From IMG/VR virus record IMGVR_UViG_3300009182_000042, positions 20,053 to 84,052 of that record: 64,000 nt of DNA; one strand, written 5' to 3'. Within the stretch, counting starts at the first letter, position 1, and every line of letters starts with the position of its first letter. Source of the stretch: a virus. This document shows positions 919 through 20,207 of the stretch, piece by piece. The translations under genes and the position numbers were made by a program. Below the pieces are notes generated by a model, which saw only the letters and a program-made list of their open reading frames with translations, was not told the origin of the DNA and searched no databases.

Positions 919-3900
919 ATGGCAGAATATAAATTAGGTAGAATTAAGTTTGTATATCAAGGTACTTGGACAGGTAGCAGTACCTATGTGGTAGACGACG
1001 TGGTTTCGGTCGGCGGAAAAACTTATATTTGTATCGTAAGTAACACATCATCAGCGGTATTTGCAACAGATTTAGCTTCCTCATATTGGAGTTTGGTTGC
1101 AGACGGTACTCGTTGGACTGGTACTTGGGCAAATGCTACTTATTATCAATTAGGCGATCAGGTGTTGTACGGCGGTATTGTTTATCAAGCAACAACAGCT
1201 CACACCAGCGCCACTGCAACAGCCACTTTGACAGCTACTGGATTTACAGTTAGTGGCGGAACTGCCACACTGACTTATGCCAGCCAAGTGGTGCAACCAT
1301 TCCTTGTTGGTGCAACTATTACTCTTGCTGGATTTACTCCAACACAGACTAGTGGTACAGTTAATACCGTCAACACAACATTTACAGTTGTTACTTGTAC
1401 TACAACACAAGTTACATTTGCATTGACTGGCACATACACAGTATCGGTTCTGGGCACTGTGGCAGGAGCAAGCCAATTAGGATTAGAACTTAATCAAGCC
1501 AACTGGACAGCATTTGCCAGTAATATCAATTATCTAAGCACATGGTCTGTCAACACACGATACAAAGTCAACGACCTAGTTACATACGGTGGTTATACAT
1601 ATATTGCTACCACTGCACATGTGTCAGCAAACACAACAGCACTGGGTCTTGAACAAGATCAAGCCAAGTGGTCAACATTTAATCCAGGTCTAAGTTATCA
1701 AGGAGCCTGGAGCGGAAGTAGTGTAAAATATCGTTTGAATGATATTGTAAAATACGGAGCCAGCTTGTTTATTTGTACAACAGCTCACGTGTCAAGTGCA
1801 ACATTTAGTACTAGTAATTTTGCCACATTCGTAAACGGACTTCAATATGTTCCAGGCGGTAGCAATGCATGGTCAAGTGCGACAACATATGTAACTGGTG
1901 ATATTGTCACATACGGTGGTAATTTATATGTTGCTTCACAGATTGCAAGTAATCAAAATCCAACAACTGCAACCACTTATTGGAATTTATACACAGGCGG
2001 ATTCAGTTATCAGGGTGCATGGACTGGAGTAACCAGTTACAAAATCGGCCAGGTAGTAAATCTTGGTGGCTATACATATCTAGCTTTGGCAGACAACACT
2101 CAAAATGTATTGACTTTGACAGGTACAACAGTAACAACAAACATTATTACCTTGAGTGCATCAACAACTGCTTTAGTTGCCAATTTACCAGTTGTATTTG
2201 CATCAACAGTCGGCGGACTCACCGGCAGCCAAACTTATTATGTTATCGGTTCAAGCATTACAGCCAACACATTCCAGGTAGCTTCTATATCCGGTGGTGT
2301 TTCACCGGTAACCTTATCAACTACAACAGGGCAAAGTGTTTCGGTAACAACTCAGCCTCAACCACCATTTGCTACTTACTGGTCTCGTTTGAATTCTGGT
2401 ATAAGATACAATCCCACTACCGGTACATATAATGCCGTATCAGCAACCAATGTGACCGGTACTGGCACTAGTGCAACATTTAACGTTACTGCTAGTAAAA
2501 CAACTTACAGTGTTACCCTTGCAAGCGGCGGCTCAGGTTACAGTTCTACCGGCGGATCAAATACAATTAAAATTGTAGGTACCAGTTTGGGCGGATTGAG
2601 CCCAGCTAACGACATCACCATAACAATTACCGGCCAGTCTTCGGGTGCAATTACAACATTTACTTCTGTAGGCTATGCAGTTACTTGGAGTACAGCAGTT
2701 TCTTATGTGTTAGGCGATGTGGTATATTTTGGATCTAATAGTTATATCTGTGTGTCAGGACACGTGAGTGCATCGGGTAATAAACCAGATGCTGATACTG
2801 TTGGTGCCTATTGGAATTTATTGGCAGCAGGTAACGAATCCGCTGTGTTAACTGTCACAGGCGACTTGTTCTATTATGGTTCTACTGGACCTACACGATT
2901 GCCAATTGGCACTGATGGACAAGTGTTACGTGTGAATTCAAATACTCCAAGTTGGGCTTACTACGGACAAATCAACAATATTGTGTATGTGTCCAGCGCC
3001 ACAGGTGTAGATACATTGGCAACAAGTCAAGGAACAACTTTAGACAAACCTTGGAGAACCATACAGTTTGCTTGCCAGCAGGTAGAAAATGGTTACTTGA
3101 ATTTAAATTTAGGTAATTTGATTCAAATCAACAAGCAGTTCTTGTTGAAAGAAGTTAATAATTTTGTTCTTTACAATTACACATTCAACATCACAGCAAC
3201 AACAACATCAACCAACTTGATAACAGTTGGCGGATCCAGCACAATTGCACAGACCACAACTACTAATTTGTATAGTAACATGCCCGTTGTGTTTAACGTG
3301 ACAGCGGGTGGATTGACTGCTGGTACCACATATTATGTGATTGGGTCCAGCATTACTTCTACACAGTTTCAAGTGGCCACCAACCCCAGCACATCTGGCG
3401 CTCAAACAGCAGTGACTTTATCAACAACCAGCACAGCCAATTTGGGTCAATATGTTTACAGTCAGTCTAAAACTGAAAGAGATACAGGATTTATTGTTGA
3501 CGGAATAATTTTTGATATTACACACACTGGTAATAGCAAGACTATTGCCAATGCATTGACTTATTTCAATAGTGCTGGTACTGGCTATACATCCGGAGTA
3601 TTGGCATATGATATCAGCCCGTTTGTCAAGGCATTGAATTATCTAAGTACCTTGATAACATCAAATGTTGGTGCAAATACTGCTCCTGGTACAAATTATC
3701 AAACCACAATCAGCTCAGCAGTTACAGTAACTGGTGCTAGCGGTACTGGTGCAATAGCAACAATCACATTTTCTGCACAAAGTTATGCTTATAATGTGGG
3801 AAGTCAGATAACAGTAGCCAGCGTCAGTCCAGCTGGATATAATGGAACTTATGTGGTACTAAGCAGTACAACCACAAGTGTCAGTTATGCCAACACCACA

Positions 3901-6900
3901 ACTGCCAGCTATATCAGTGGCGGTACTGTGAACTACACAAGAGCTACTCAGCAAATCAATACTACATACACAGCAGAAGCGGCAGCGTTGACCAGAATTC
4001 CAGTATTAGTTGGATTGGTAACAGCGCCATTGAGTTTAGGAAATACAACTCCAATAACTGGTATCCTTGCAAATGCAACTACAACCATATCAGTTAAAAC
4101 AGGAACTTATAACGAAGTATTACCAATCGTGGTACCGTCATACACAGTGGTGTATGGAGATGAATTGAGATCATCAACTGTACAACCAGCTGTAGCTAAT
4201 ATCACGCTGGCTAACGACAAACCAAAAACTATTGTGGCATTGACTCGTCTACAGACACAACTTGGCAATTTGCTACAAAACACAAGTATAACAGGTTCAA
4301 CAGGTAACACACAATATCTGTCAGTATCAGCTTCAACTGGCGCTGCCAGTGTTGCAACATTGACATTTGCCGCACAAACAACTGCACCATTTAGTGTTGG
4401 TCAGTATATCACAGTGAGTGGTTTTACAAGTTCAGCCGCAGGCTACAACGGCAGTTATGCAGTAACAGCATGCACCACTACAACTGTAAGTTATGCCAAC
4501 GCAACAACAGCTTCAACATCTGGATCGCCTATTGTTAGCGGACAAAATACTCAGTTGTCAGTAGCTGATGTGGGAAGTTCTACAGCAGTTAATACAATCA
4601 ATACATTTACCAGCAGTATCAATAACATGATCTTTAACGGAATTGCACAAGTTCCTGCGATTAGTATTACAACTGTTACTGGATACAATAGTTCATTCTT
4701 ACCAGGCCATAGCACAGGTGTTACACAGATTACCAGCAACTATGGATTTATTAAAGCTGAATTGACAGCATTCATGAATACCAACTATAGTAGTGTCTGG
4801 TCAAGTCTAGGAGTTGCTGGTCAACAAATATATCTATTGCAAATTCAATATATTCTGGACGGTATGCAATATGATATGGCTTACGGTTGTAACAATCAAA
4901 GTATAATTAACGGCAGCTCATACTACAGTTTAAATATTAATCAAATTCCTTTGGTTAATCAGCCAGCATATCTTGCAACGTTCCAAAGATTACAAGCCAT
5001 CGTTGGACAAATTGTACGAGCTCAAAGTGTTGCCGCAACAGCTGGTAACGGTGCGACCCAGACAACAGGTTCAGATGCAGGCGTAGCACCAGCCGCATTT
5101 GCTTCAGCACGTATTGCTGATGTAATTTATTGGTTCACCAACGGTAATGCAAACTCAACAGTTAATACTATTACCGGCAGTATCAGCGGTACTACATTAA
5201 CTGTAAGCTCACAAACTAGTGCAGTTGCACCGGGCACATTACTAACAGGAACTGGTATCAATGGCATGTACATTGTTAACCAAATATCCAGCAGTGCTGG
5301 CGCCCAAGCTGCCACAACATACAGCAGTGGCGGTGGCAATGGTACAAGCACATTTGTTGTTGCCAGCGCAACCGGTATTGCCGCAGGTCAATTTATTACT
5401 GGTACTGGTATTCCAGCAGGAACATATGTGGCTTCAACATATAGTTCCGGTAGTACCACAGTGCCTATTGCAAACTATTTTGGTTCACCGGTAACATTTA
5501 CACTCCAAGCTAGCGGTGCATATTTGTTCTACCCAGCAAATACCGCTGGTACATATACTCTAAGCATTACTGGTGGCACAGGCACAGCATTTACATCATT
5601 GTCAACCTTTACACCAGTCAATAGCGGTGCATACACACTGGTTGGTTCCAATGCATTACAACTTGCCTACACACAATTACAAGCAAGAGCAACAGAGATT
5701 GCTTCGGATACTCAAGTATTTGTTGCAAAATACAATCAACAATACAACATAAGCGCAACATTAACAAGCCGCGATGCGGGATTGATTGTGAACGCCCTAA
5801 GTTTTGATGTGTTGTTTACAACCAACTTTAACACCATTGCAGTTGGCCGTGCATTCAACAGATCAAACACCAGCGCCCAAGCAGTTGTTAATAATGTCAA
5901 CAATCAACTTTATGCAACAACAGCCGCTATAAATTTTATTGGTTTCAAAGCCAAAATGATAGCTGCCGCTGGAGGACAAGTTCAGGCACAGACATTGATT
6001 GATGATATTATCTATAGAATTAATGGCCAAGCAACTACGACCTTGACAACAGCGACAGTTAGTACCAATGTGTTGACAGCATCCAGCACCAGTGCAATGG
6101 CAGTTAACCAACCAGTATCATTCACCAACTTGCCAGCCAATATTAACACAACTGTAACTTCAACGCTGGCAGCATTTGCAGGATCAATTACTGCAACTGC
6201 AACTGTGGCATTGACTGGAGTTGGTACAATTACAAGTAATGGTGGCGGTAGCTTTACGTTTGGTACTGCACAATCAGCAGGTACATTTTATGTGGGACAA
6301 GTACTAACACCAACTGGATCATTGAGCGGTATAACATGGACTGGCTACACAGCCGGTACCAGCTATGTTGTTAGTGTTACCAACGGTACAAGCACTGTTA
6401 CGTTGACCACGGTGACTGGCAACGTGCTGACTGTCACACAAGGTACAGCATCTGGCATCACATTCAACACATATCTGGCCACAATAACCACAACGGGTCT
6501 AGTTATTGGATCTGCAATAGCATTATCAAGTACTGGTTTTGGTGGATTAACCACAGCCACTACATACTATGTTATTGGTTTTGGCCCCACAGCAAGTGCA
6601 TCATGTGCATTGAGTGCAACAGCAGGCGGCAACAGCGTGGCGTTGTCAAATGGTTCTGGCACAATGATTGCACAGACTACTACAAATTTACTAAATCTAA
6701 CTGGTTATGTGGGAACGCTGGGTATCACAGTAGGACAACAATGTTATTTCAGTGGAGGTACCTACGCAGGAATATCTCCTTATCAGTTGTATTACATCGT
6801 CAGTGCAAGCGGAACTGGTATTACTGTAAGTACAACATCGGGTGGCTCATCAGTTACAATAAGCACTGTTTCAAGCGGTAGTATGACACTGACTGTGAAT

Positions 6901-9900
6901 GCCGCTGGCGGAATTTGGGCAAACAATCAGTATTATATCAATACAATACCAAGCTCTACCACATTCACTATTACCAATAGTTACAAGAGCGGTACAGCCT
7001 ATACAATCACCAACACAGCCAGCAGTATGACTGCCACGGCAACATTTGGTCCTACTGCTACTGTGTTGTATTACAACAGTCCTATGATACATGGTAGTGT
7101 AACGTACAATGGCACACTGACCACAGTCAATGCCGCTGAGATTATTCGTGCCAACGTTGGATTTTTAAGTGCAGAAGCAACTGCATATGTGGCTGCCAGT
7201 TATGGCGGTTCAATTTCAAGCACAGCCGCAACAACAAACTTGATAACAACTTCGGGCAATCACAACTTTACAGTTGGTGATCCTGTACAATTTAGTGGAA
7301 GTGTAGTTGGCGGGCTTAGTGCGGCAACAACTTATTATGTGTTGACTGTAAACAGCAACACAACATTCACAGTGTCGTTGACTCAAGTAAGCCAAGGTAC
7401 ACAAACGGCAGTGGCGCTAACAAATACAAGTAGTGCGTTCACTGTAACTTATTTTAACACAGCACAAAGTTATATCACTTCATTCTTAAATGGAATGATC
7501 TACGACTTGCAATATACTGGAAACAGTAGAAGTTTGAGAGCTGTAGAGCTCTACAACAATGCTGTTGGTAGCTCCACTATCAGTAACATGTTCTTGGTAC
7601 GTAATGGATCTGGACTTCGAAACATGACTTTGTCAGGTATTACAGGTACCTTGAGTGCGGCAAATGCCTATGGTACAAAACGTCCAACAGGCGGTGCTTA
7701 TACAAGCCTTGATCCAGGCTTTGGACCTAACGATACCAGTGTTCAAATATTGACACGCAGTACCTATGTACAAAATTGTACCATGTTTGGTTATGCCTGC
7801 GTGGGTGCAAAAGTTGACGGAGCACTGCATAGTGCGGGCAATAAGTCTATTGTTTCTAACGATTATACTTGCGTTATCGGTGATGGTATTGGTTGGTGGA
7901 ATACTGGCACTGGGTCTCTAGCAGAACTTGTTTCAGTTTTTAACTACTACAGCTATTCAGGCTATCTAGCTGAGCTAGGTGGACGCATCCGTGCTACAAA
8001 CGGTAACAGTTCTTATGGCACATACGGTGTGCTTGCCGAAGGTACTGACACATTTGAAACTCCAATATATGCCAATTTAAATAACAGAGCGGCTGCCGCC
8101 ACGATAACCACTGTGGTAACTGACAGCACTACACAGATTCTACGATTTGAATATGGTAATGCCGGTATCAACTATACAAATTCTGTTCCTACAGTTAACG
8201 GATCTGGTTACAACGCAGTGGCTTTCCAAGATGAATTCCGTGATGCCGCAGTATTTGAAACAAGATTGATTGATCCAAACAACACAGGATTAACTGGCGG
8301 AACAAGTTATGTGTCAGCAGTTAATGTGGGACAAACCAACGCCAACGGCGTGGGTTATCAACTGATTGCGGCTGCCGACACTGCACTAACTGGCGGGTAT
8401 AATGGCATGAAGGTACAGATAACAGCTGGTACTGGTGTTGGACAAGTTGCTAATATTTTGGCTTTCAACAATGCCAGCAAATATGCACAAATTATTCGTC
8501 CAACATTTGCTACACTACCAGTGACAGCAAGTACAAATGCAACTGCCGCATCCAGCAGTAGTGCTTTCATAGCAACATATGCAGGAAGATATCCAACGCT
8601 GGTAGCACCTGTCATGGGATCAGGCTCTTATGTGGCCGGTATGTATCTAACTAGTAGCGGTACAGTCACAGCTGGTACATATATCACAGCAATCAACACT
8701 GGATCAATCACTAGTGCATCAATAGCCAGTTCAACATTTAGTTCAACTGGATCAATTGGCGCAAGTATTACCGGTGCTGGTACAGCAGCCAATCCATGGA
8801 TAGCAACCATCACAGGTATGAGTAGCACCAGCAGTTTTGTAGTTGGTGCCCAGATCACTGCTACAAATGGTACAGGTACATTATACGGTAGCACTCCAAC
8901 CAGTGTAATTGTAGCAAGTGTTCCAAGCACAACCAGTATCACATACAGCGTGATCGGCGGCACAATTCCCACAACAGGAACTGTTACCAACATTCAACAG
9001 ACCATGTTGTCAGGCTCTGCATTTGCCAACTTGTTACCAGGTATGGTACTAAGTGGTGGTAGTGTGATTGCTAGTTATGTTGCAGGACAGGTAACAGCTA
9101 CTGGAACTGCACTGGCTACTGCCACAATGACTGGAACTATCAGTACAAACACATTGACTCTAGCAACATTCACAGTTGGCTCAATTTACACAGTACAAGT
9201 TGGGCAATATGTTGCTCAAATTAGCGGAATACCAGCGGGCACATACATAACCGCAGTGAACCCAGCAACTGGAGTGATAACAATTAACACAACATTGTAT
9301 GGTGCAGTCAGTGGTAGCAACAGTACTTACACCGCAGGTGGTGCAGGCACATATGCATTAACAGCTAACAGCTTTACAACAGTTACCGGCGCACCAACAA
9401 CAGGTACTCAATATTTGTTGAATACTGCGCAGACTCAGATAGCCGCTACTGTTACAGGCACACAGAACACATTAACTGTGGCCAGCAACGCATCGTTGTA
9501 TAACACAATGCCGTTGTATCTTGGTACAGCAGTTGCACCGTTGAGTGGTGTTGCTATTTCGGCAACTGGAGCAATTTCATTTACCTCAACTACAACAGCA
9601 CTACCAGCTAATACTCAAGTGGTTATTTCTGGTGCTAACGTTGGAACAGGCATAGTGGCGACAGGAACATTCTTTGTGGCTGCAAGCCCATCGCCAACAA
9701 CAACTGGTGTAACATTATTAACTGCACTTTCTGGTGGTACAACTATCAGTACAACAGCAGGTACAGTGGTAACTAGCGGTAACTTATCCAGTGTCAATAT
9801 TGGTTCAAGTGGTAACTTGACATTTACAGCATTAGGCGCGGCACTACCAGCAGGAACACCAGTTGTAATTAGTGGATCAAACGGTGGTGGTGGTACAATT

Positions 9901-12900
9901 GCCAACGGTACATACTATGTTGCTGTGACACCAACACCAACTTCAAGTGCAATAACATTGGTTACCACAAGCGGCGGCTCAACAAGCCCAACCACAACAT
10001 CTGGTACTCCAAGCGGTTTGACATTTGCGTTTAGTTTGGTTAATCCATTGACATTCACCTACACATTAACAGCACCGTTTGGATTATCTTCGTTTAGTGT
10101 GTACTACGTGAACGGCATCACCAACTCAAATGGCGCTGCCAGCACAACATTTAGTGTGACAACTACTGCATCTGGAACATCTCCAGTGGCAGTAAATTCT
10201 ATTACAGGACAAAACGTGTCGCTGTATGCGGCTGGATGGGACCATGTGGTTCCAGGTAGTGTTATCAATAACACTACTGATTTGACATCAGCATACATTA
10301 TAGAACCATCAATCAGCTATACAGGTCCAGGTTACACAGGCGTAGCAAGATCATTGGCAACCAGTGCCAGTTATGTGGGCGTTGCTTACGGTTCTGGAAA
10401 CTATGTTGCTGTATCAACGGGCGCTACCACTACACAATATAGCACAACTGGTCGTGCATGGGCCAACGGCGGCGCATTACCAAGTGCAACATCTTGGAAT
10501 GCTGTAACATATGGCGGAGGCCAAGGCGCACAAGCCACAGTTACAGTTGGTGGTTTTGGCGGAAGCGGTGCAGTATTAACAGCAGTTGTGGTGGGCGGCC
10601 AAGTAACAGGCATTACTATTGTCAACGGTGGCTTCAACTATAACACAGTTCCAACAATCACCATTACTCCAGTCAGCGGAGGATCAGGTGCTTCGGCAAT
10701 CTGTACAGTTCTAAATGGTACTATCACTACAGCTACCATGGTTATTAATGGTTCTGGTTATGCTAGTGGTGCTACAGTTGCAGTGGTTACCAGTGCAGTT
10801 TCCGCAGTTACCACTGTCACACGAGGACAAAATTACGGATACAACAGCACAACTCCATCTGTTACATTAAGTGCTCCATTTAGCGGCACAGTATGGAGCA
10901 GTGGTGGTAGTGGCACAAGTGGTAGTTACTACTATTTTGTGAATACTGGTGTAACTCCTAACGTAACCAACTACTATCAGGCCACAAGTACAGGTACATT
11001 TACCACAAGCGGCCCAACACATACCACCGGTACAGTGGCCAACAACACAGTAAACTTGTTGTATGTGGGTACACAAGCCACAGTAACACCTACATTAACC
11101 AATAATGGTATCAGCAGTTATACAGTAACCGTAGCTGGATTTGGATATTCAACTGTTCCTACAATTACTATTGCAGATTTGTCAGCAAGATTTGTGGCAA
11201 TCAGCACAACAACAGCTGGTGCAAACGTGGCACCTACTGGAGTAGCAGGCGCATGGAATTCTATGACATTGCCAAGTGCAGGTTATAATGCAATTGCATA
11301 TGGTCTAGGACAATATGTTGTAGTAGGCGGTACAGCCGGTGCAGGTATTATAGCAAGCAGTAGCGATGGTATCAACTTCAATGCACGAACTGTTCCAGCA
11401 GGTGCATCAGCTCAGTATTTTAGTGCTGTGGCATACGGTTCTACAGGAACAGGCGCATCTGGTAACACGTCAACTGGATTGTTTGTAGCCATACCTTTGT
11501 ATGGTAACACACCTGTTACAAGTACAAACGGTACCACATGGGCGATTCCACAAACCGCAGGCGGATCCAATGTGACTTTGCCGGCTTCACTGGCATGGAG
11601 CGGGATTGCATATGGTAATGGTCGTTTTGTAGCAATTGCCAGCAATAGTTCTAGCATAGCTTACAGTCTTAACGGTGGCGGCGCTTGGAACTTGTCCACT
11701 GTTGCTGGAGGTTCTGGACTGCCAGGTGTTTACAGTTGGTCAAGTATTGCTTATGGTGAAGGTCAATTTGTGGCCATAGCCGCAAACAGTGCTGTAAGTG
11801 CTACCAGCTGGGACGGTATCAACTGGACTATACAGACATTACCAGCAACACAAAACTGGAGCAGTGTGGCATTTGGTAACCCACTGGCCGCAACTATCGG
11901 ATATAACCCGCTGTTTGTAGCAGTTGCAAATACTGCTGGAACATCTGCGGCTGTGATACATACTGGCGCAACGCCACAAGGCCGTGTCAAAGTAACTAGC
12001 AATGCAGTTAGTGAAATACGTGTGATTGAGCCAGGAAGTGGATTTGCAAAAGGTATTGTTACTGCAACAACCGCAACCACAAACGTTATCACAGCTGATA
12101 ATATTGAAAACTTGTCAGCAAATCAACCAGTTGAGTTTAATACAGTAAGTGCAGGTGGGTTGGCTTTACAAACAACTTACTATGTGATTGGTTCCAGTAT
12201 TACAACAACCTCAGCACCAGCCGGCACGTTCCAAGTGGCTACCACATCGGGTGGCACAGTACCAGTGACATTGACAACCACTTCACCAACCGGTATGACA
12301 TACACAACTGGTCCTATAGTTACTATTACTGATCCAAACCGTATTAATGCGGCATTGGTCAGAGTGCGTACAGGTGATGGAGTGCTTGGTAACCCTAGCT
12401 TTCCTAACAGAGGTGCTGCCAATGCAACTGCAACAGCAAACACAGTAGGTGACGGATATAGCGACATCTATCAGACCAGCACATTTATCAACATAAGCAA
12501 TTTGTATACTTTACCAACTGCTGGTGCAAACGTGCAATTTGCATCAATATCAAATGTTTGGTACAAATTGGTTGCAGTGACAAACTTGTTGGGTATTCCA
12601 GGCAACTACACAGCCACATTCCAGATAAATCCAGGACTTAGCGTGTATCTTGCTCCTACCACTGGTAATTTGATTACCACAAGATTGAAATACAGTCAGG
12701 TTCGCTTGACTGGACATGATTTCTTATATATCGGTACTGGAAACCAGACACAGACAAATTATCCGTATGTCAATGTAAGTAGTGCAGTTTCTGCCAATCA
12801 AACATTGGGCAGTGTGGGTGGCCGTGTGTTCTTTACAAGTACAGACCAGGACGGCAACTTCAACGTTGGAAACTTGTTTGGAGTACAGCAATCAACAGGT

Positions 12901-13263
12901 ACTGCTAGTTTGAACGCCAGTGCGTTTAACTTGGCTGGATTACAGAGTTTGACACTGGGAGCGGTATCAGTTGGTGTGGGATCCGCTACTATTACAAGTT
13001 TCAGTACTGATCCGTACTTTACTGCTAATAGTGACAACATTATTCCTACGCAGAAAGCTATCAAGAGCTATATCACAGCCCAGATAGGTGGTGGTTCTAG
13101 TAGCTTGAACGTAAATACATTGACAGCGGGCGTGATATTCATTGGTAATAATCAAATATATAACACTACCGGATATCAACAGATATACGTAAGCAGTAAA
13201 ATGCTATTCACAGGTGGAATTGATGGGGCACCAGTTGCTCTTACATTCTTCGCACAAAGATAA
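919..13263 (+). CDS. Giant modular adhesin / tail-fibre-like virion protein (4114 aa)
   Basis: One of the largest phage ORFs one can expect, in one uninterrupted frame. Visible modules: about seven W..(S/T)Y..GD.V.YGG..Y.A units (residues ~11-54, 65-99, 203-238, 258-294, 314-348, 361-394, 589-621) resembling CBM5/12 carbohydrate-binding repeats; a pectin-lyase-like opening (VYVSSATGVDT, ~689-724) and a beta-helix-like stretch (~2213-2391); many Thr/Ser-rich units carrying GGLT..TTYYVIGSS or PAGYNGTY-type motifs; propeller-like W..(V/I)AYG.G.FVAI repeats (~3145-3195 and 3423-3691); and a C-terminal domain (~3843-4114) shared with the preceding gene. No signal peptide is seen. Start ATG follows a ribosome site and late promoter. 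Role inferred: surface polysaccharide recognition by the virion. No catalytic site was identified. Confidence 0.85.
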   Translation: MAEYKLGRIKFVYQGTWTGSSTYVVDDVVSVGGKTYICIVSNTSSAVFATDLASSYWSLVADGTRWTGTWANATYYQLGDQVLYGGIVYQATTAHTSATATATLTATGFTVSGGTATLTYASQVVQPFLVGATITLAGFTPTQTSGTVNTVNTTFTVVTCTTTQVTFALTGTYTVSVLGTVAGASQLGLELNQANWTAFASNINYLSTWSVNTRYKVNDLVTYGGYTYIATTAHVSANTTALGLEQDQAKWSTFNPGLSYQGAWSGSSVKYRLNDIVKYGASLFICTTAHVSSATFSTSNFATFVNGLQYVPGGSNAWSSATTYVTGDIVTYGGNLYVASQIASNQNPTTATTYWNLYTGGFSYQGAWTGVTSYKIGQVVNLGGYTYLALADNTQNVLTLTGTTVTTNIITLSASTTALVANLPVVFASTVGGLTGSQTYYVIGSSITANTFQVASISGGVSPVTLSTTTGQSVSVTTQPQPPFATYWSRLNSGIRYNPTTGTYNAVSATNVTGTGTSATFNVTASKTTYSVTLASGGSGYSSTGGSNTIKIVGTSLGGLSPANDITITITGQSSGAITTFTSVGYAVTWSTAVSYVLGDVVYFGSNSYICVSGHVSASGNKPDADTVGAYWNLLAAGNESAVLTVTGDLFYYGSTGPTRLPIGTDGQVLRVNSNTPSWAYYGQINNIVYVSSATGVDTLATSQGTTLDKPWRTIQFACQQVENGYLNLNLGNLIQINKQFLLKEVNNFVLYNYTFNITATTTSTNLITVGGSSTIAQTTTTNLYSNMPVVFNVTAGGLTAGTTYYVIGSSITSTQFQVATNPSTSGAQTAVTLSTTSTANLGQYVYSQSKTERDTGFIVDGIIFDITHTGNSKTIANALTYFNSAGTGYTSGVLAYDISPFVKALNYLSTLITSNVGANTAPGTNYQTTISSAVTVTGASGTGAIATITFSAQSYAYNVGSQITVASVSPAGYNGTYVVLSSTTTSVSYANTTTASYISGGTVNYTRATQQINTTYTAEAAALTRIPVLVGLVTAPLSLGNTTPITGILANATTTISVKTGTYNEVLPIVVPSYTVVYGDELRSSTVQPAVANITLANDKPKTIVALTRLQTQLGNLLQNTSITGSTGNTQYLSVSASTGAASVATLTFAAQTTAPFSVGQYITVSGFTSSAAGYNGSYAVTACTTTTVSYANATTASTSGSPIVSGQNTQLSVADVGSSTAVNTINTFTSSINNMIFNGIAQVPAISITTVTGYNSSFLPGHSTGVTQITSNYGFIKAELTAFMNTNYSSVWSSLGVAGQQIYLLQIQYILDGMQYDMAYGCNNQSIINGSSYYSLNINQIPLVNQPAYLATFQRLQAIVGQIVRAQSVAATAGNGATQTTGSDAGVAPAAFASARIADVIYWFTNGNANSTVNTITGSISGTTLTVSSQTSAVAPGTLLTGTGINGMYIVNQISSSAGAQAATTYSSGGGNGTSTFVVASATGIAAGQFITGTGIPAGTYVASTYSSGSTTVPIANYFGSPVTFTLQASGAYLFYPANTAGTYTLSITGGTGTAFTSLSTFTPVNSGAYTLVGSNALQLAYTQLQARATEIASDTQVFVAKYNQQYNISATLTSRDAGLIVNALSFDVLFTTNFNTIAVGRAFNRSNTSAQAVVNNVNNQLYATTAAINFIGFKAKMIAAAGGQVQAQTLIDDIIYRINGQATTTLTTATVSTNVLTASSTSAMAVNQPVSFTNLPANINTTVTSTLAAFAGSITATATVALTGVGTITSNGGGSFTFGTAQSAGTFYVGQVLTPTGSLSGITWTGYTAGTSYVVSVTNGTSTVTLTTVTGNVLTVTQGTASGITFNTYLATITTTGLVIGSAIALSSTGFGGLTTATTYYVIGFGPTASASCALSATAGGNSVALSNGSGTMIAQTTTNLLNLTGYVGTLGITVGQQCYFSGGTYAGISPYQLYYIVSASGTGITVSTTSGGSSVTISTVSSGSMTLTVNAAGGIWANNQYYINTIPSSTTFTITNSYKSGTAYTITNTASSMTATATFGPTATVLYYNSPMIHGSVTYNGTLTTVNAAEIIRANVGFLSAEATAYVAASYGGSISSTAATTNLITTSGNHNFTVGDPVQFSGSVVGGLSAATTYYVLTVNSNTTFTVSLTQVSQGTQTAVALTNTSSAFTVTYFNTAQSYITSFLNGMIYDLQYTGNSRSLRAVELYNNAVGSSTISNMFLVRNGSGLRNMTLSGITGTLSAANAYGTKRPTGGAYTSLDPGFGPNDTSVQILTRSTYVQNCTMFGYACVGAKVDGALHSAGNKSIVSNDYTCVIGDGIGWWNTGTGSLAELVSVFNYYSYSGYLAELGGRIRATNGNSSYGTYGVLAEGTDTFETPIYANLNNRAAAATITTVVTDSTTQILRFEYGNAGINYTNSVPTVNGSGYNAVAFQDEFRDAAVFETRLIDPNNTGLTGGTSYVSAVNVGQTNANGVGYQLIAAADTALTGGYNGMKVQITAGTGVGQVANILAFNNASKYAQIIRPTFATLPVTASTNATAASSSSAFIATYAGRYPTLVAPVMGSGSYVAGMYLTSSGTVTAGTYITAINTGSITSASIASSTFSSTGSIGASITGAGTAANPWIATITGMSSTSSFVVGAQITATNGTGTLYGSTPTSVIVASVPSTTSITYSVIGGTIPTTGTVTNIQQTMLSGSAFANLLPGMVLSGGSVIASYVAGQVTATGTALATATMTGTISTNTLTLATFTVGSIYTVQVGQYVAQISGIPAGTYITAVNPATGVITINTTLYGAVSGSNSTYTAGGAGTYALTANSFTTVTGAPTTGTQYLLNTAQTQIAATVTGTQNTLTVASNASLYNTMPLYLGTAVAPLSGVAISATGAISFTSTTTALPANTQVVISGANVGTGIVATGTFFVAASPSPTTTGVTLLTALSGGTTISTTAGTVVTSGNLSSVNIGSSGNLTFTALGAALPAGTPVVISGSNGGGGTIANGTYYVAVTPTPTSSAITLVTTSGGSTSPTTTSGTPSGLTFAFSLVNPLTFTYTLTAPFGLSSFSVYYVNGITNSNGAASTTFSVTTTASGTSPVAVNSITGQNVSLYAAGWDHVVPGSVINNTTDLTSAYIIEPSISYTGPGYTGVARSLATSASYVGVAYGSGNYVAVSTGATTTQYSTTGRAWANGGALPSATSWNAVTYGGGQGAQATVTVGGFGGSGAVLTAVVVGGQVTGITIVNGGFNYNTVPTITITPVSGGSGASAICTVLNGTITTATMVINGSGYASGATVAVVTSAVSAVTTVTRGQNYGYNSTTPSVTLSAPFSGTVWSSGGSGTSGSYYYFVNTGVTPNVTNYYQATSTGTFTTSGPTHTTGTVANNTVNLLYVGTQATVTPTLTNNGISSYTVTVAGFGYSTVPTITIADLSARFVAISTTTAGANVAPTGVAGAWNSMTLPSAGYNAIAYGLGQYVVVGGTAGAGIIASSSDGINFNARTVPAGASAQYFSAVAYGSTGTGASGNTSTGLFVAIPLYGNTPVTSTNGTTWAIPQTAGGSNVTLPASLAWSGIAYGNGRFVAIASNSSSIAYSLNGGGAWNLSTVAGGSGLPGVYSWSSIAYGEGQFVAIAANSAVSATSWDGINWTIQTLPATQNWSSVAFGNPLAATIGYNPLFVAVANTAGTSAAVIHTGATPQGRVKVTSNAVSEIRVIEPGSGFAKGIVTATTATTNVITADNIENLSANQPVEFNTVSAGGLALQTTYYVIGSSITTTSAPAGTFQVATTSGGTVPVTLTTTSPTGMTYTTGPIVTITDPNRINAALVRVRTGDGVLGNPSFPNRGAANATATANTVGDGYSDIYQTSTFINISNLYTLPTAGANVQFASISNVWYKLVAVTNLLGIPGNYTATFQINPGLSVYLAPTTGNLITTRLKYSQVRLTGHDFLYIGTGNQTQTNYPYVNVSSAVSANQTLGSVGGRVFFTSTDQDGNFNVGNLFGVQQSTGTASLNASAFNLAGLQSLTLGAVSVGVGSATITSFSTDPYFTANSDNIIPTQKAIKSYITAQIGGGSSSLNVNTLTAGVIFIGNNQIYNTTGYQQIYVSSKMLFTGGIDGAPVALTFFAQR

Positions 13264-13659: not shown

Positions 13660-15603
13660 ATGGCACGTTATAACAGCTCAGCAGTTGCTACACTAAGTTC
13701 GGCAACGGTTATCACAACTCCAAGTCAGGGGTTGTTGACAGAATTGGTCGGATCACCGCCTTATGCGGTGCAAATTCCCGATCCAACTATTTGGTATGGT
13801 CAAACACAGACCTACTATAATAACTCAGGAGGTGTTGTAACACTGAATACTCCTGCCGGTACATTTATTGGTCCAGGAAGTTCAGGCAGTTCAAGTTTAC
13901 AGATGCCCAATCAAAGTGTTGTGGTATTGGCATCGGACACTACCAAATATGTTATCTCATCATTCGACGGCGGCCCAACTTATGCTCAAACTGGTAACGG
14001 TAACAGCAGTAGTTATGCATTGTTGTTGAACGGTGACTTGGTGCAAAGTGCATCAACCATGAACTTGGTCAACACCAACACCACAACTGTCAACGCATTT
14101 GGCGCAGCCACAAGTATCAATATTGGTGCTCCATTCAGCACAACAACCTTTAACGGCAGTGTGTTCGTCAAAGGCGGCTTGGTGCAAGTCAACTCCAGCA
14201 GTGTGTTGGTAGAAGATAAAAATATTGAAATTGGTTATATCAACCCTATCAGCTACGGCGGCGGCACAATAACAACCATCGGTGGATCCATTTCCGGTTC
14301 AACCACATTTACCAGTATTAGTGGTACAAAGATTGCCGCAGGTTATACTGGCACAGTGTCTGGTGTGAGTCAATTCAGCACCAGCGGTGCTGGCACTGGT
14401 GCAACATTCAACATCACCATAAGCGGTGCTGGCACAACATACACTGGTGTTACCACAATTACGGTGGTCGCCGGCGGCGTGGGTTATGCACTGGGTGATA
14501 CTGTAACCATTGGTGGTAGTGTGTTTGGCGGCTCAAGTGCCAACGGTACCAACAACCTGACATTCACAATCAGCAACGTGAACGCCAGTCCTTGGTATGC
14601 CACAATTACAGGCATAACCAACACCACCAACTTGGTGGTAGGCAGCGCAATCAGTGCCACAAACGGTACTGGTAGTTTTGGTTCTGGTAATACTTCTCAG
14701 TTGGTTTTGAGCAATCTAAGTAGTACCAGCATACAGATTGTGGTCACAGGCGGCACAACGCCAGTAGCGGGTACAGTTACCAATATTACACCGGGTTCCA
14801 ACGATGCTTATGCCAATGACGGTGGTATCAAGCTGTATGGCTCAACAAACAAAACACTGATTTGGTCGCTGAATTCAGTTGGACCAACCAGTGGCAATAC
14901 TGGCCAACCATCATGGACCACCAGCGAAGGCTTGTCTTTCAGAAGTGCCACTGCCAGTAACTTTGGTATCCAAACATACCCTGGATCGGGCACTGGTTTT
15001 AACATATTAACCAACGGTGTAACCAACGGCACAGTCAACATTGCTACTGATGCAGTAACTAATAACCTGTTCACAGCTGGTACTGCAAACACCATTGGTG
15101 CATCTGGATCTGGCACAACTACTATTAGAAATACCACTTTAACATTCAGCGGTACCACTCTAAATGCAACTGCCATGACCAACTTCAACGGTAAAACTAC
15201 TGGTTGTTTCATGTATATTGGTAGCCTGGCTATTGGTACAACCAACAATCCAGGTGACGGTCAGATCAATGCAACCAGCAACATCATAGCGTATTACTCA
15301 GACGACAGACTAAAAACACGATTGGGCACCATTGAAAATGCTCTTGAAAAATTGGAAACACTAACTGGTTTCTACTATGAAGCCAACGAAACAGCACAGG
15401 CACTGGGTTACAAATCAGTGCGTGAAGTAGGTGTGTCAGCCCAAGATGTGCAAAAGATCCTACCAGAAATTATCAAGCCAGCACCTATTGACGCTAAGTA
15501 CATGACAATTCAATACGAAAAGTTAACACCATTAGTAATTGAAGCAGTTAAGGAACTGAGTGCCATGGTAAAAGAGTTGAAAGCCAAGATTGATAAGGAA
15601 TAA
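13660..15603 (+). CDS. Tail fibre with C-terminal S74 intramolecular chaperone domain
   Basis: A 647-aa protein. Residues 1-540 are low-complexity Thr/Gly/Asn-rich fibre sequence with repeats such as NTTTVNAFGAATSINIGA that are shared with the fibre near 57-58 kb. The C-terminus (about 546-647) is a Peptidase_S74/endosialidase chaperone domain: YYSDDRLK places the expected Ser-Asp cleavage pair at S547-D548, followed by LTGFYYE, GVSAQDVQ and the terminal amphipathic helix region QYEKLTPLVIEAVKEL. In this family the domain trimerises the fibre and then cleaves itself off. The stop codon overlaps the start of the Cys-rich gene (TAATG), implying translational coupling with the maturation cassette. 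Confidence 0.9.
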   Translation: MARYNSSAVATLSSATVITTPSQGLLTELVGSPPYAVQIPDPTIWYGQTQTYYNNSGGVVTLNTPAGTFIGPGSSGSSSLQMPNQSVVVLASDTTKYVISSFDGGPTYAQTGNGNSSSYALLLNGDLVQSASTMNLVNTNTTTVNAFGAATSINIGAPFSTTTFNGSVFVKGGLVQVNSSSVLVEDKNIEIGYINPISYGGGTITTIGGSISGSTTFTSISGTKIAAGYTGTVSGVSQFSTSGAGTGATFNITISGAGTTYTGVTTITVVAGGVGYALGDTVTIGGSVFGGSSANGTNNLTFTISNVNASPWYATITGITNTTNLVVGSAISATNGTGSFGSGNTSQLVLSNLSSTSIQIVVTGGTTPVAGTVTNITPGSNDAYANDGGIKLYGSTNKTLIWSLNSVGPTSGNTGQPSWTTSEGLSFRSATASNFGIQTYPGSGTGFNILTNGVTNGTVNIATDAVTNNLFTAGTANTIGASGSGTTTIRNTTLTFSGTTLNATAMTNFNGKTTGCFMYIGSLAIGTTNNPGDGQINATSNIIAYYSDDRLKTRLGTIENALEKLETLTGFYYEANETAQALGYKSVREVGVSAQDVQKILPEIIKPAPIDAKYMTIQYEKLTPLVIEAVKELSAMVKELKAKIDKE

Positions 15604-16124
15604 TGATGTCAGATCAAGACAATAATCAGCCAGTCGATCCAAAAGCAATCCAACCGCAGACCATTACTGGCGGTACTATTTCGTTCGCCAACATTACAGC
15701 TGAAATTGGGCAGGGTAACAGCAATGTGGGTTTGCAATTTTTGAACACCTATGTTGCACCCAGTCTAACTGGATATTTTCAAAATGCTCCCAACGGTGGC
15801 AACTGTGTGGGCTACAATAGCAACTGCGGGTCAACTCCACGTCCCACATTCCGTAGCACATATCCTGACATGAACGAATTTAGGAACTTAACTTATTTCA
15901 ATAGTCAAAACAAGGGACAATGTAACAACGGTAATTGTACCAACAACAACTGTAACTGCGGAAATATCGCCTGCTACAACTGTACTATCAATGGTCGTAT
16001 TAACTGTCAGAATTGTGACGGACAAGCATGGCTACAAGCTAATTGTAACTGCGCCTGTACAATGAATTGTAATTATACCAGCTACAGCGTGGCTTGTAAT
16101 TGCAACTGCAATTGTAATTGTTAA
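15603..16124 (+). CDS. Cys/Asn-rich virion-like protein, candidate radical SAM substrate
   Basis: A 173-aa protein in two halves. Residues 1-~65 contain TGGTISFANITAEIG, close to the (S/G)xISF..I..E(F/I)G motif common in phage tail and fibre proteins. Residues ~66-173 carry 19 Cys, 17 of them after residue ~105, mostly as NC/CN pairs and ending in a run of alternating Cys and Asn. The start overlaps the fibre stop (TAATG); a second Met follows directly. The radical SAM/SPASM gene begins 17 nt downstream. Precursors of Cys-derived thioether peptides (sactipeptides, ranthipeptides, SCIFF) pair a leader and a Cys-rich core with such an enzyme, so this is a plausible substrate. Metal binding or a plain disulfide-rich tip are alternatives. 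Function not established. Confidence 0.75.
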   Translation: MMSDQDNNQPVDPKAIQPQTITGGTISFANITAEIGQGNSNVGLQFLNTYVAPSLTGYFQNAPNGGNCVGYNSNCGSTPRPTFRSTYPDMNEFRNLTYFNSQNKGQCNNGNCTNNNCNCGNIACYNCTINGRINCQNCDGQAWLQANCNCACTMNCNYTSYSVACNCNCNCNC

Positions 16125-16141
16125 TACACTAAAGGTAACCC

Positions 16142-17599
16142 ATGAAATTTGAAATATTAGCATCACGGAACAAAGACGACGAGAAGATATTTTATTACGA
16201 TAACCAAACAAACACGCTGAGTGACGAAACTGGGTTTGTTTATGAGTATCCCCATGCTCTGGCCAGTGTTACACATACTCACGTACAAAAACCCTATGTT
16301 AGTTTTGATAAAGATCGTCCTCTTAAAAAATCTAAATCCGCACGTATAGTAAAAATTCAGATGGGGCTTAGTTGCAATTACAGTTGTGACTATTGCAGTC
16401 AGAAATTTGTAGAACGTCCAAAAGAAACCAACGCCAAAGATATTGAAAATTTTATGGAACTGTTCAACAACCTGGAGTTTGATGAACAACAGGGACTAAA
16501 GGTGGAGTTCTGGGGCGGCGAGCCGTTTGTGTATTGGAAAACCATGAAGCCCCTGGCTGAAGCGATTGCAGATCGTTTTGAAAGCTGGCAGAAAAAACCC
16601 ATGTTCAGTGTGATTACTAATGGTAGTCTATTGACTGAAGAAATCTGTGCATGGTTATACAGCATGAATTTCAGTATAGCTATCAGTCATGATGGCCCTG
16701 GTCAGCATGTGCGTGGTCCAGATCCATTTGATGATCCAAAAAAGCGTGAAATTGTGTTGGACCTTTATCAGATTCTTAGACCTTTAGATCGTATCAGTTT
16801 CAACAGCATGCTCAACAGCAAGAACACCAGTCGCAAAGAAATTTATGATTGGTTTGTGGAATTCACCAACGATCCAAGTGTTGTACTGGGCGAAGGTGCA
16901 TTTGTTGATGCATATGATGCAGATGGTTTAGAAAACTCAATGAAAACCAAAGCTGAACATTTTGCTTTTAGACAACGTGCTTTCGGAGAAATTTATGGCT
17001 CCGCTGGTGATATTGGATTCACCGGCATCCTACAAAAAGTAGATAATTTTACTGAAGCTGTGCTTACACATAAAAATGCAGAATTTTTAGGGCAGAAATG
17101 CGGTATGGACGACGAGGGTGTTATAGCATTTGACCTAAAAGGCAATGTTATTACCTGTCAAAACGTCAGTGCATTGGAGATTGGCAAAAACGGTGAATCG
17201 CATCTGGGTGGAAACCTTGCAGATCTAGACAGTGTGGAAATCAAAACTGCCACTCACTGGAGCAATCGTAAAGAATGTAGCGGTTGCCCAGTGCTACATA
17301 TTTGTCAAGGGGCTTGTATGTTCCTAGACGGTGAATATTGGACTGCCAGTTGCAACAATGCATATAGTGATGCTATTCCCCTGTTTGCCACCAGCATTAT
17401 GAAAATAACCAACGGGTATATTCCTATGACTGTAAAAAGTGAAGAATTGCCCTTAGAAAGACAGGATATCTTTGGGACTATGATGAAACACCAAGAATGG
17501 ACACCAAAAAAGATAATCCCCATCAAAGTTGTAAGCGAAAAAGTAGCTGTTATTGACAATGTCGAAGTCTACGGACAAAGCACTGTGATAAATAGTTAA
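16142..17599 (+). CDS. Radical SAM/SPASM peptide-maturase-like enzyme
   Basis: A 485-aa protein. The radical SAM CxxxCxxC motif is C78-C82-C85 (GLSCNYSCDYCSQ), binding the 4Fe-4S cluster that cleaves S-adenosylmethionine. The GGEP-type motif (EFWGGEPF) and ITNGS and SHDGP motifs follow in normal order. The C-terminal third has a SPASM/twitch-type Cys set: C320, C339, then a CSGCP...C...C cluster and a final C near NNAY, suited to bind auxiliary clusters. Residues 1-70 form an extra N-terminal region. SPASM enzymes modify peptides or proteins (anSME, sactisynthases, PqqE); the preceding Cys-rich gene is the obvious candidate partner. Ribosome site aaggtaac. A late-type promoter box for the next gene lies inside its 3' end. 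Confidence 0.88.
   Translation: MKFEILASRNKDDEKIFYYDNQTNTLSDETGFVYEYPHALASVTHTHVQKPYVSFDKDRPLKKSKSARIVKIQMGLSCNYSCDYCSQKFVERPKETNAKDIENFMELFNNLEFDEQQGLKVEFWGGEPFVYWKTMKPLAEAIADRFESWQKKPMFSVITNGSLLTEEICAWLYSMNFSIAISHDGPGQHVRGPDPFDDPKKREIVLDLYQILRPLDRISFNSMLNSKNTSRKEIYDWFVEFTNDPSVVLGEGAFVDAYDADGLENSMKTKAEHFAFRQRAFGEIYGSAGDIGFTGILQKVDNFTEAVLTHKNAEFLGQKCGMDDEGVIAFDLKGNVITCQNVSALEIGKNGESHLGGNLADLDSVEIKTATHWSNRKECSGCPVLHICQGACMFLDGEYWTASCNNAYSDAIPLFATSIMKITNGYIPMTVKSEELPLERQDIFGTMMKHQEWTPKKIIPIKVVSEKVAVIDNVEVYGQSTVINS
17587..17594 (+). promoter_or_regulatory. T4-late-type promoter box GATAAATA inside the 3' end of the radical SAM gene
   Basis: GATAAATA lies in the last codons of the radical SAM gene and ends 27 nt before the ATG of the Ig-domain protein, so that gene may be transcribed independently as a late gene. 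The match is to the T4 late consensus; activity is inferred. Confidence 0.4.
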
Positions 17600-17621: not shown

Positions 17622-18602
17622 ATGAATTTGTATATTTCCACACATTGTCGTAGATATTATGCTGTTGAAGCAGTTGTTACCTCTGAAGGGATCGAATATA
17701 AAACTTATCCAGCATATCTAATATCAGAACTGAAAAAATACTGGGCCTCCTTGGCAAACAGTGGTATTCCGGGTACTTTGATTTTTGATGATCAACATCC
17801 TATGATTACCCCTGATATGAAACCACTGTGGACTACAGATACTGTTGCTGTGTATGATGTGCAAGTTGCAAACAACACCTATACCAGCGGAGTTATAGAT
17901 TTTCAATTGGATATAAAAAATAATAATGATTATAGCGATCATGCACAATACGATATATATTCTCCAGGGTGCCTGGCTGTAACAACGGTATTTGACGAAC
18001 ATAGAGACAAACATAGCAATGATATTATGAGCTATAGCGCAATGACCAAAGCACAGACAGTATCCAACGGTATATCTAGAGGCTACATGATTCCGATACA
18101 TAACTCTGTGGCACAAACATCTCATTCAAGAATGAAGCCGCATGTGCATCAGCGTTTGACAGGCAATGCACCTATGATCAGCATCATGGTTCCACTAGCA
18201 GACATGGACCCAACAGATTGGGAGATTGTGTTCACTGTGGCAGAAGAAGGACTGCTACGTGTGAACGGCAATACTGTTGAACCAATTCCAGTGGGATACC
18301 TATTGAATCATATGCCTAAAGTATGGTTTAAGAAAAACACTGCCACCGTAAACACTAATAATTTTGTTGATTTAGAATTTTATTTAGGCACTGCTAGCGG
18401 AAGCCCGATTACTGGCCACGATGCAACAGTGTATATCAAAACCACTGGCGGCCAACTCAATAAAACTCAAGTGCGAACAGTTAACGGAGAAGGTAAAGTG
18501 AAACTGATTTCAAATCATTTGGAATCAGGCGATGTTATCAAAGTAAGTGTTGGCTTTCAATACTATTCCGGCACAGATGATTGTATTGTTACAGTCAAAT
18601 AA
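17622..18602 (+). CDS. Unknown protein with C-terminal Ig-like (bacterial Ig type) domain
   Basis: A 326-aa protein with ribosome site caaggagcc. Residues 1-~235 match no family I recognise; they contain a Met/His-rich stretch (HSRMKPHVHQR) and FTVAEEGLLRVNG. Residues ~240-326 look like an invasin/BIG-type Ig sandwich: LEFYLGTASGSPITGHDATV..., KVKLISNHLESGDVIKVSV and a YYSGTDDCIVTVK ending. The gene sits between the radical SAM enzyme and the halogenase-like enzyme and may be a partner or a second substrate of the cassette, or simply a virion protein. It has no signal peptide. Confidence 0.65.
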   Translation: MNLYISTHCRRYYAVEAVVTSEGIEYKTYPAYLISELKKYWASLANSGIPGTLIFDDQHPMITPDMKPLWTTDTVAVYDVQVANNTYTSGVIDFQLDIKNNNDYSDHAQYDIYSPGCLAVTTVFDEHRDKHSNDIMSYSAMTKAQTVSNGISRGYMIPIHNSVAQTSHSRMKPHVHQRLTGNAPMISIMVPLADMDPTDWEIVFTVAEEGLLRVNGNTVEPIPVGYLLNHMPKVWFKKNTATVNTNNFVDLEFYLGTASGSPITGHDATVYIKTTGGQLNKTQVRTVNGEGKVKLISNHLESGDVIKVSVGFQYYSGTDDCIVTVK

Positions 18603-18608
18603 CATGGC

Positions 18609-19775
18609 ATGAAACTGGCCATAATAGGCGATGGCAAAGCCAGTGCCATAGCAATACTAACAGTTCTAGATCTAGTAAAAAATAAAAATTACACAGATCT
18701 AGAACTTTTTATTTTGCACGATACTATACGTGCCAACGACCAGTTGGCAACCGCTGCCAATCCTGTGTTAAATCGATTGCTCAAAAATGTGATTAACTTT
18801 AATGATCACGCGGACATTAAAAAAATACAAGGCAGCATGAGACTAGGAATCAGCCACACGTGGCACGATGACTCGTTGGCCAAATGCTGGATACAATCTC
18901 CAAGTCCGGGTCTACATTTTAATGGTAATATTTTCTTTGATTTTGTAGTAGAGTCAGTATGTAATCTTTATGCGAATGTCACTTATCAAACTGGGAAAAT
19001 GCGAAAATTAAATCAGTCTGATCAGTATGCCACGGTGTCACTGGACGAAACTGAATTGCTATTTGATTATGTAATAGACACAACCGGATTAGATCAGACC
19101 AATTATACAGTACCGGACTTTGCTCCAGTAGACAAAATAATAACAGCCGAAACTAAAAATTCCTATAATGAATCGCATACATCGATTACATTCCATGACA
19201 ATGGCTACAGTTTAGGAATACCACTAGTAGGCAAGAAAGTTGTATATTATTTTTATAACAGTAAAATTATCAATGTAGATCAAGCAGTGGACAATTTTAA
19301 TCAAATTGCCAGTTTAAATACCGATCCTCAATTGAAAGATTTCAATCCCAGATATAAAAAATACAGTATAAATGATAGAATCATATATGCAGGACCCGGT
19401 TTGTTCTATATGGAGCCAATACAGGCATTGCCCTTTCACTTTTATCAAGATACAATAAAAATAATATTGTCTAATCTCATGTTAGAAAATTATAACAAAT
19501 CGTTAGACATAGAAGCTAATCAAGGTTATATTACCAACATGGAATTAAAACAAGACTTGATTGCACTTACCTATCATAATAAAAATAATTATTCATCAGA
19601 ATTTTGGAAACAAGCTAGAGATAACAGTAAAAAATACTTGTCGCAGTCAGAGCATTTTAAAAAATTTGTAGATAATTATAAAAATACAGGTAATTTAGAA
19701 TATGATTTGCATGACAACAAAGTGGCCGTGAAATATATCACAGGCTTGGGCATAGATCTAGATAAGATCTACTAA
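18609..19775 (+). CDS. Flavin-dependent tryptophan-halogenase-like protein (divergent)
   Basis: A 388-aa protein, shorter than typical tryptophan halogenases (about 500-540 aa). It starts with a Rossmann strand-loop (KLAIIGDGKASAIA) instead of GGGTAGW. It then shows family-like landmarks in order: RLGISHTWHDD, GLHFNGNIFFDFV, DYVIDTTGLDQ, GYSLGIP in the position of the usual WxWxIP, and IIYAGPGLFYMEPIQALPFHFY, which parallels the GFLEPLESTS motif. The catalytic Lys in its usual G(E/K)..PT context is not evident, so halogenation cannot be asserted; a monooxygenase or other flavin-dependent activity is possible. Cyanophage halogenase VirX1 is a known viral precedent. It is 6 nt after the Ig-domain gene, and its 3' end overlaps the convergent Nudix gene by 18 nt. 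Confidence 0.55.
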   Translation: MKLAIIGDGKASAIAILTVLDLVKNKNYTDLELFILHDTIRANDQLATAANPVLNRLLKNVINFNDHADIKKIQGSMRLGISHTWHDDSLAKCWIQSPSPGLHFNGNIFFDFVVESVCNLYANVTYQTGKMRKLNQSDQYATVSLDETELLFDYVIDTTGLDQTNYTVPDFAPVDKIITAETKNSYNESHTSITFHDNGYSLGIPLVGKKVVYYFYNSKIINVDQAVDNFNQIASLNTDPQLKDFNPRYKKYSINDRIIYAGPGLFYMEPIQALPFHFYQDTIKIILSNLMLENYNKSLDIEANQGYITNMELKQDLIALTYHNKNNYSSEFWKQARDNSKKYLSQSEHFKKFVDNYKNTGNLEYDLHDNKVAVKYITGLGIDLDKIY

Positions 19776-20207
19776 ATCAAATACAGTTTGCAATTTGGTA
19801 CGTATAGTTTTACTGCTAAAACTGTTTCGTAACCCTTGATGTAGGGGTTTAGGTGCGCGGTCGATCACGGTCCACGCCCATCCCAGGTGTTCATCGCTCA
19901 ATATGGGAACAAATTCCGTTTCAACCACGCACAGATATGTGTGAAAATTAAACACACGGTCGTTGGATACAAATGTTTCTAACGGAATAGTTTTAAGTAG
20001 TGATGGTATACTGCCAATTTCTTCTGTAATTTCACGTTGAAGTCCTTGCCATGGAGTTTCGCCATGCACATTGGTACCACCCACTAAACCCCACGTGCCT
20101 TCATGTTTGCCTGATTTCTTTTGCAATAGCAAAAATCTCTTGGTGGCCTTGGCATAGAACAGCGCACCACTACAAACTATTTGGTCTTTTATAATACGAT
20201 TTTCCAT
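19758..20207 (-). CDS. Nudix hydrolase
   Basis: A 149-aa protein with a complete Nudix box GX5EX7REUXEEXGU: G44, E50, R58, E59, E62, E63, G65, I67 (GTNVHGE... REITEEIGSI). The family hydrolyses nucleoside diphosphates linked to another moiety, using Mg2+ bound by the box glutamates. WGLVGG upstream of the box is typical. Substrate unknown; nucleotide-sugar, NAD-like or oxidised nucleotides are options. It is the last gene of the minus-strand gp14-gp15 unit and its start overlaps the end of gp15 by 19 nt. It is convergent with, and overlaps, the halogenase-like gene. Confidence 0.92.
   Translation of the reverse strand: MENRIIKDQIVCSGALFYAKATKRFLLLQKKSGKHEGTWGLVGGTNVHGETPWQGLQREITEEIGSIPSLLKTIPLETFVSNDRVFNFHTYLCVVETEFVPILSDEHLGWAWTVIDRAPKPLHQGLRNSFSSKTIRTKLQTVFDLVDLI

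Follow-up and report, generated by a model that had tools for sequence, protein, structure and literature searches.

The closest described counterparts of the locus reported here are the ranthipeptide maturase PapB/NxxcB and the SCIFF maturase CteB, radical S-adenosylmethionine (SAM) enzymes which carry a seven-cysteine SPASM region and are encoded beside a Cys-rich neighbour. QhpD, the maturase of quinohemoprotein amine dehydrogenase and a further radical SAM/SPASM enzyme, acts on a protein subunit and not on a small peptide. SPASM enzymes are known to form thioethers to the beta-carbon of Asn and Asp (PMC8326336). In this study, we analyse a 64,000-nucleotide stretch of viral DNA (the window; positions 20,053 to 84,052 of IMG/VR record IMGVR_UViG_3300009182_000042) that encodes on its plus strand a Cys-rich tail-fibre-type protein, a radical SAM/SPASM enzyme and a third conserved protein, which we name F (15603-16124), R (16142-17599) and P (17622-18602), respectively. 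R shares with PapB/NxxcB and CteB the radical SAM core, the seven-cysteine SPASM region and the Cys-rich neighbour, but it is encoded by a phage, its partner is a fibre protein in place of a small leader-core peptide, and the Asn of the partner stands directly before Cys (position -1). It resembles QhpD as a radical SAM/SPASM enzyme with a proposed protein target, and differs from it in that the locus has no dehydrogenase subunits and that the pair and the nearby halogenase-like gene are not conserved together. Taken together, our findings suggest that phages alter the tips of their host-recognition fibres by a chemical route not described before, and the best explanation is probably that a phage-encoded maturase modifies Asn-Cys sites at these tips.

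The assignment of R (485 aa) to the radical SAM superfamily agrees between profiles, motifs and model. It scores above the cut-off of Pfam PF04055 (E=8.7e-9; 36.2 bits against 29.5), the CX3CX2C motif is intact (C78, C82 and C85; 16373-16396), and the fold matches too. The seven-cysteine SPASM pattern is also complete (C320-X13-G-X4-C339, C379-X2-C382-X5-C388-X3-C392, C404; 17099-17353), and both sets of cysteines are invariant in an alignment of 31 R homologues with identities to the window protein down to about 39%. R belongs to PHROG 1802 (phrog_1802, E=4.5e-63), a group described as 'radical SAM domain-containing protein' with function unassigned, whose link to fibres with Asn-Cys repeats, (NC)n, is new here. 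Its best NCBIfam match, PapB, reaches 73.4 bits against a cut-off of 340, the second-best, QhpD, 67.6 bits against 453, and the geopeptide and other peptide-maturase models likewise give scores well under their cut-offs. In an AlphaFold model (predicted local distance difference test, pLDDT, 84) the predicted fold is nearest to CteB, with anSME, TigE, ChlB and SuiB as further neighbours. The below-cut-off scores and the nearest folds together indicate that R is of the peptide- or protein-modifying radical SAM/SPASM type and forms a family of its own, PHROG 1802, outside any characterised radical SAM/SPASM family. The radical SAM proteins of the Campylobacter CP220 type were not taken as the same system because the similarity is weak and confined to the core, and no obvious NC fibre gene lies alongside. 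Far more distant radical SAM proteins (86-90 bits) adjoin (NC)n proteins at L219:4821-7076 and L243:1696-3583, the latter also with many CQxxC repeats, and are possibly further subfamilies.

F, a protein of 173 aa, contains 19 Cys, and 15 of these are immediately preceded by Asn, a number reached in 0 of 100,000 residue shuffles. It ends in the repeat CNCNCNCNC (residues 165-173; 16095-16121), which is common to partners with unrelated N-termini. The first-pass annotation of this DNA had placed F 17 nt before R, with its start overlapping the stop of an S74 fibre gene, and the coordinates and motifs were confirmed, the overlap between the ATG of F and the stop of the upstream gene (13660-15603, plus strand; Peptidase_S74 E=9.5e-10, with tail-fibre PHROG matches) being 1 nt. 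It had also called the N-terminus of F phage-tail-type. Neither that motif nor the whole protein of the window has a Pfam or PHROG profile match, and the fibre assignment follows instead from the gene context, from a relative (L117) in which an F-type protein is fused to an S74 domain and has tail-fibre PHROG matches, and from several partners in other phages that match tail-fibre PHROGs. On these grounds, it is well supported that the partner is a tail-fibre-type protein. The small leader-core precursor of a RiPP (ribosomally synthesized and post-translationally modified peptide) system, from which a product is released by cleavage, has no equivalent here: R stands beside Cys-rich partners of the fibre type, which measure about 65 to 620 aa and have their Cys-rich part at the C-terminal end.

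By their N-termini, the partners form 10 unrelated clusters (71 T4-like, 52 JWF-like, 13 Rhodobacterales, 5 small and 6 single) that share the repeat, and the link between R and its partner has thus been built or moved several times. In 99 of 147 unique partners no more than 10 residues separate the last CxC from the C-terminus; in most others the repeat stands directly before an IIC, Hint or S74 domain. It directly precedes Hint in JWF, phage 2-1, Burkholderia paludis and Halomonas (L108), and S74 in L117. Hint and S74 are known self-cleaving families, and (NC)n is therefore presumably meant to be the mature C-terminus. S74 (endosialidase chaperone), Hint and the fibre chaperones all provide a dedicated finishing of the C-terminal end of a fibre, as is proposed here for R. 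In L108, on the Halomonas sulfidaeris chromosome, the R-like gene is split over several frames and the S74-type fibre has NCNCDC right before its Hint domain.

Co-conservation of the two genes in relatives, on which the first-pass annotation had made its idea depend, was found from both sides. Firstly, a search of the viral collection gave 41 R relatives with the window protein and at least 557 with an alignment (80 kept), and 164 of 180 distinct R relatives are accompanied, at most 4 kb away and in the same orientation, by an Asn-Cys-rich partner. Of those with no such partner, many break off at the R end or have a fibre gene that is frame-shifted or of the (NC)n-Hint type with a lower repeat number; a few cases, L095 among them, lack an explanation. 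The F-type gene is directly upstream of R in one clade (L001-L012, L015, L017 and L027). In a second clade R is located outside the fibre operon, next to phoH-like genes and others, and is directly followed by an F-type gene; the encoded protein has the N-terminus and Cys core of the first clade and, in addition, an IIC domain of about 165 aa at its C-terminus. Gene order varies (F-R, R-F, F-P-R, P-F-R) while the pairing stays. Secondly, viral contigs were retrieved by an (Asn-Cys)4 DNA pattern, blind to R, with R called by a hidden Markov model score above 80 bits and mostly far above. R is encoded in 74 of 120 such loci, not all of them independent given the near-duplicates in the collection, compared with 0 of 116 (Asn-Tyr)4 control loci.

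Two protein parts used as independent baits gave the same picture. IIC domains that come after an NC segment have R next to them in 48 of 51 distinct cases, the remaining three being truncated on the side in question; for those after a polyPro/polyGly linker, a small non-NC group, R is found in 0 of 2 (one entry of this IIC table, L455, is an NC protein misclassified as 'other'). The fibre of cyanophage SynMITS9220M01 (L077:7669-9519) has its IIC domain after about 36 prolines and a polyArg run, not NC repeats, and R is absent from the complete genome of this phage. With the JWF-type fibre body as bait, the NC signature is present in all distinct tails and R in 51 of 54. Among the (NC)4 loci, a recurrent small protein with the C-terminal end HTHIFYDDYSTACNCNCNCNCTRG was seen in L166, L172, L207, L215 and L231; a distant R (141-153 bits) lies several kb off in two of these loci, and the others have none in the stretch covered.

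The strongest hint to the chemistry is the directional Asn-Cys dipeptide signature. Among 148 unique partners, Asn precedes 70% of 2071 Cys, as against 5.6% of 5318 Cys in the other open reading frames (ORFs) of the same loci. The signature extends to isolated Cys, 69% of 942 being preceded by Asn (73% in 641 distinct 9-mers), and positions +1, -2 and -3 of Cys lack a comparable Asn enrichment, with -3 near background. This offset profile, in which Asn is enriched at -1 only, rules out NxxC and CX3D as a general partner signature; a CX3D-like site in F itself has a first Cys that is not invariant among aligned homologues, and F does not qualify as a CX3D/NxxC substrate. Shuffling of Asn/Cys-rich ORFs is a weak control for the pairing, since many NC pairs survive it, and stronger controls take its place, namely the linker contrast, the comparison with control ORFs and the (NY)4 scan.

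We propose that F, a tail fibre or adhesin, and R would be made from the same operon, with F as the substrate of R. R would abstract a hydrogen near the Asn of an Asn-Cys dipeptide, and the Cys sulphur would then be joined there, most likely as a thioether. The Cys-rich tip and the (NC)n tail may in this way become rigid and resistant to proteases and redox changes at the distal end of the fibre, the site of host recognition, and in some lineages self-cleavage by Hint or S74 would leave (NC)n as the mature C-terminus. F would be part of the virion and would function in adsorption. The parts of this proposal differ in strength. R-partner pairing, its reciprocity, the fibre context, the Asn-Cys signature and the intact catalytic and SPASM motifs are observed directly; that R modifies F is very probable, and a thioether at Asn-Cys is a tentative choice of bond that has somewhat less than an even chance of being right. 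In a more far-reaching form, with a similarly tentative standing, R would represent a widespread virus-encoded radical SAM class that carries out a new reaction on vicinal Asn-Cys, the linkage being formed, for example, between adjacent residues or between fibre chains, so that fibre tips of unrelated phages are covalently hardened and Hint or S74 exposes the modified tail. The chemistry itself has a fair chance of being new.

Several points weigh against a maturase acting on Asn-Cys sites of the fibre. The relation between R and F as enzyme and substrate is a deduction, and the position of F at the fibre tip is read from its sequence alone. The structure model of F is uninformative (pLDDT 38). 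A link between neighbouring residues would form a small, strained ring. Known SPASM thioether substrates have NxxC/CX3D spacing and not Asn at -1, and their links therefore do not reveal which one would be made here; (AC)n tails in L015 and L027 indicate that Asn is not strictly required. A Pfam scan of R found no PqqD/RRE leader-binding domain, although such domains can escape Pfam. Moreover, 46 of the 120 (NC)4 loci have no R in the stretch covered; some of these are short or truncated, or contain implausible or chance reading frames, and others are unexplained.

Three other explanations have to be weighed against the same observations. It is possible, though unlikely, that the Cys serve a metal-loaded tip, in which CxCxCxC strands of the fibre trimer bind metal and the action of R is confined to a few sites or to a partner, the repeat not being cross-linked. 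The needle of T4 gp37 binds iron through histidines, the strictly alternating Cys at the distal C-terminus resemble metal-binding CxC strands, and the non-Cys positions of the repeat are small residues (N, A and D); such a tip leaves both the near-obligate R gene and the Asn before isolated Cys unaccounted for. Slightly less probable still is that R is an epimerase which inverts alternate residues of (XC)n into an L/D helix like that of polytheonamide, the Cys being structural and not meant for linking. This would suit the alternating pattern of the repeat, the weak sequence matches of R include YydG, and radical SAM epimerases act on every second residue, EpeE/YydG also having an extra cluster (PMC8326336). 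Against it, the seven-cysteine SPASM region of R is intact, its predicted fold is nearest to CteB and anSME and not to YydG, and isolated Asn-Cys pairs outside the repeats carry the same signature. That R acts mainly on P or a small molecule, with F a mere passenger of the fibre operon, is very improbable, for although P is linked in many lineages and phage radical SAM genes are usually labelled auxiliary metabolic genes, P is missing in 94 of the 164 pairs where F is present, the pairing outlasts changes in gene order, and (NC)n alone retrieves R in unrelated phages.

If R modifies F, as the maturase proposal holds, radical chemistry, which has so far been associated with enzyme maturation and peptide antibiotics, would serve phages in the construction of a part of the virion, with a bearing on how the stability of fibres and host recognition are viewed. 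Natural enzyme-substrate pairs would become available in the hundreds, marked by a clear and directional Asn-Cys signature, a new peptide cross-link might come with them, and PHROG 1802 and the third gene P would gain a likely role. The first-pass annotation knew of no described phage system of this kind, and our literature searches bear this out: searches on radical SAM combined with tail fibre or virion, on RiPP with phage and on 'NCNCNC' returned no comparable system and no fibre-maturation pathway with a radical SAM enzyme. The paper on JWF, a cultured phage (PMC3899368), and that on the related Xylophilus phage Lumi (PMC9959647), whose host is environmental, mention neither a radical SAM gene nor mass spectrometry. 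A study of pelagiphages placed radical SAM cassettes in the host-recognition region, with no function given (PMC7029224).

P (326 aa) and the halogenase-like gene that follows it add to what the first-pass annotation had listed. P homologues stand beside the pair in 70 of 164 loci (41/55 JWF-like, 13/13 Rhodobacterales, 6/6 small-fibre, 7 T4-like and three singletons) and in none of the 52 IIC-fused or 3 Hint-fused loci; this mutual exclusion suggests that P, IIC and Hint may replace one another. The homology of P extends over its full length (hhalign Prob 99.9, E=1.2e-35). Pfam gave no match to P and the PDB no convincing one; the C-terminal part of P looks Ig-like by eye only. P is probably a partner of the fibre tip, either a chaperone or a tip protein. 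In Rhodobacterales (L093-L104 and L107) the P-F-R cassette occurs in several copies, with a small F that ends in NCNCNCRC; there are at least 4 loci in Thalassobacter stenotrophicus, and two lie about 10 kb apart in Thalassobius vesicularis. A prophage and a gene-transfer agent are both candidate origins of these copies. In JWF, R is gp30 and the (NC)n-Hint fibre is gp28. JWF gp29, encoded between the fibre gene and R, was considered as a universal third component and rejected, only a few loci having it.

The gene after P (18609-19775, plus strand) encodes an accessory Trp-halogenase-like flavoprotein (Pfam PF04820, 6.9e-15), in which a WxWxIP motif was looked for and not found. A parallel with QhpC/QhpD/QhpG, joining this halogenase to a conserved Trp of F, was dropped as a general model because the gene is present only in the closest relatives (L003-L011) and absent from L001, which retains the Trp of F. 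In the second clade (L018:3591-8500 and similar loci), R-F is followed by a conserved run of genes with no known function, some of which resemble 2-oxoglutarate oxygenases by eye, and by a further enzyme of about 505 aa. The 84-kb virus record as a whole encodes a tail sheath, a tail tube, a T4 gp15-like sheath stabiliser, a terminase, a DnaB-like helicase and fibres, which marks the virus as a phage with a contractile tail and T4-like features. Positions 919-13263 of the window, ahead of the S74 fibre gene, are taken up by one fibre-like ORF of 4114 aa, of low complexity and rich in Thr and Ser.

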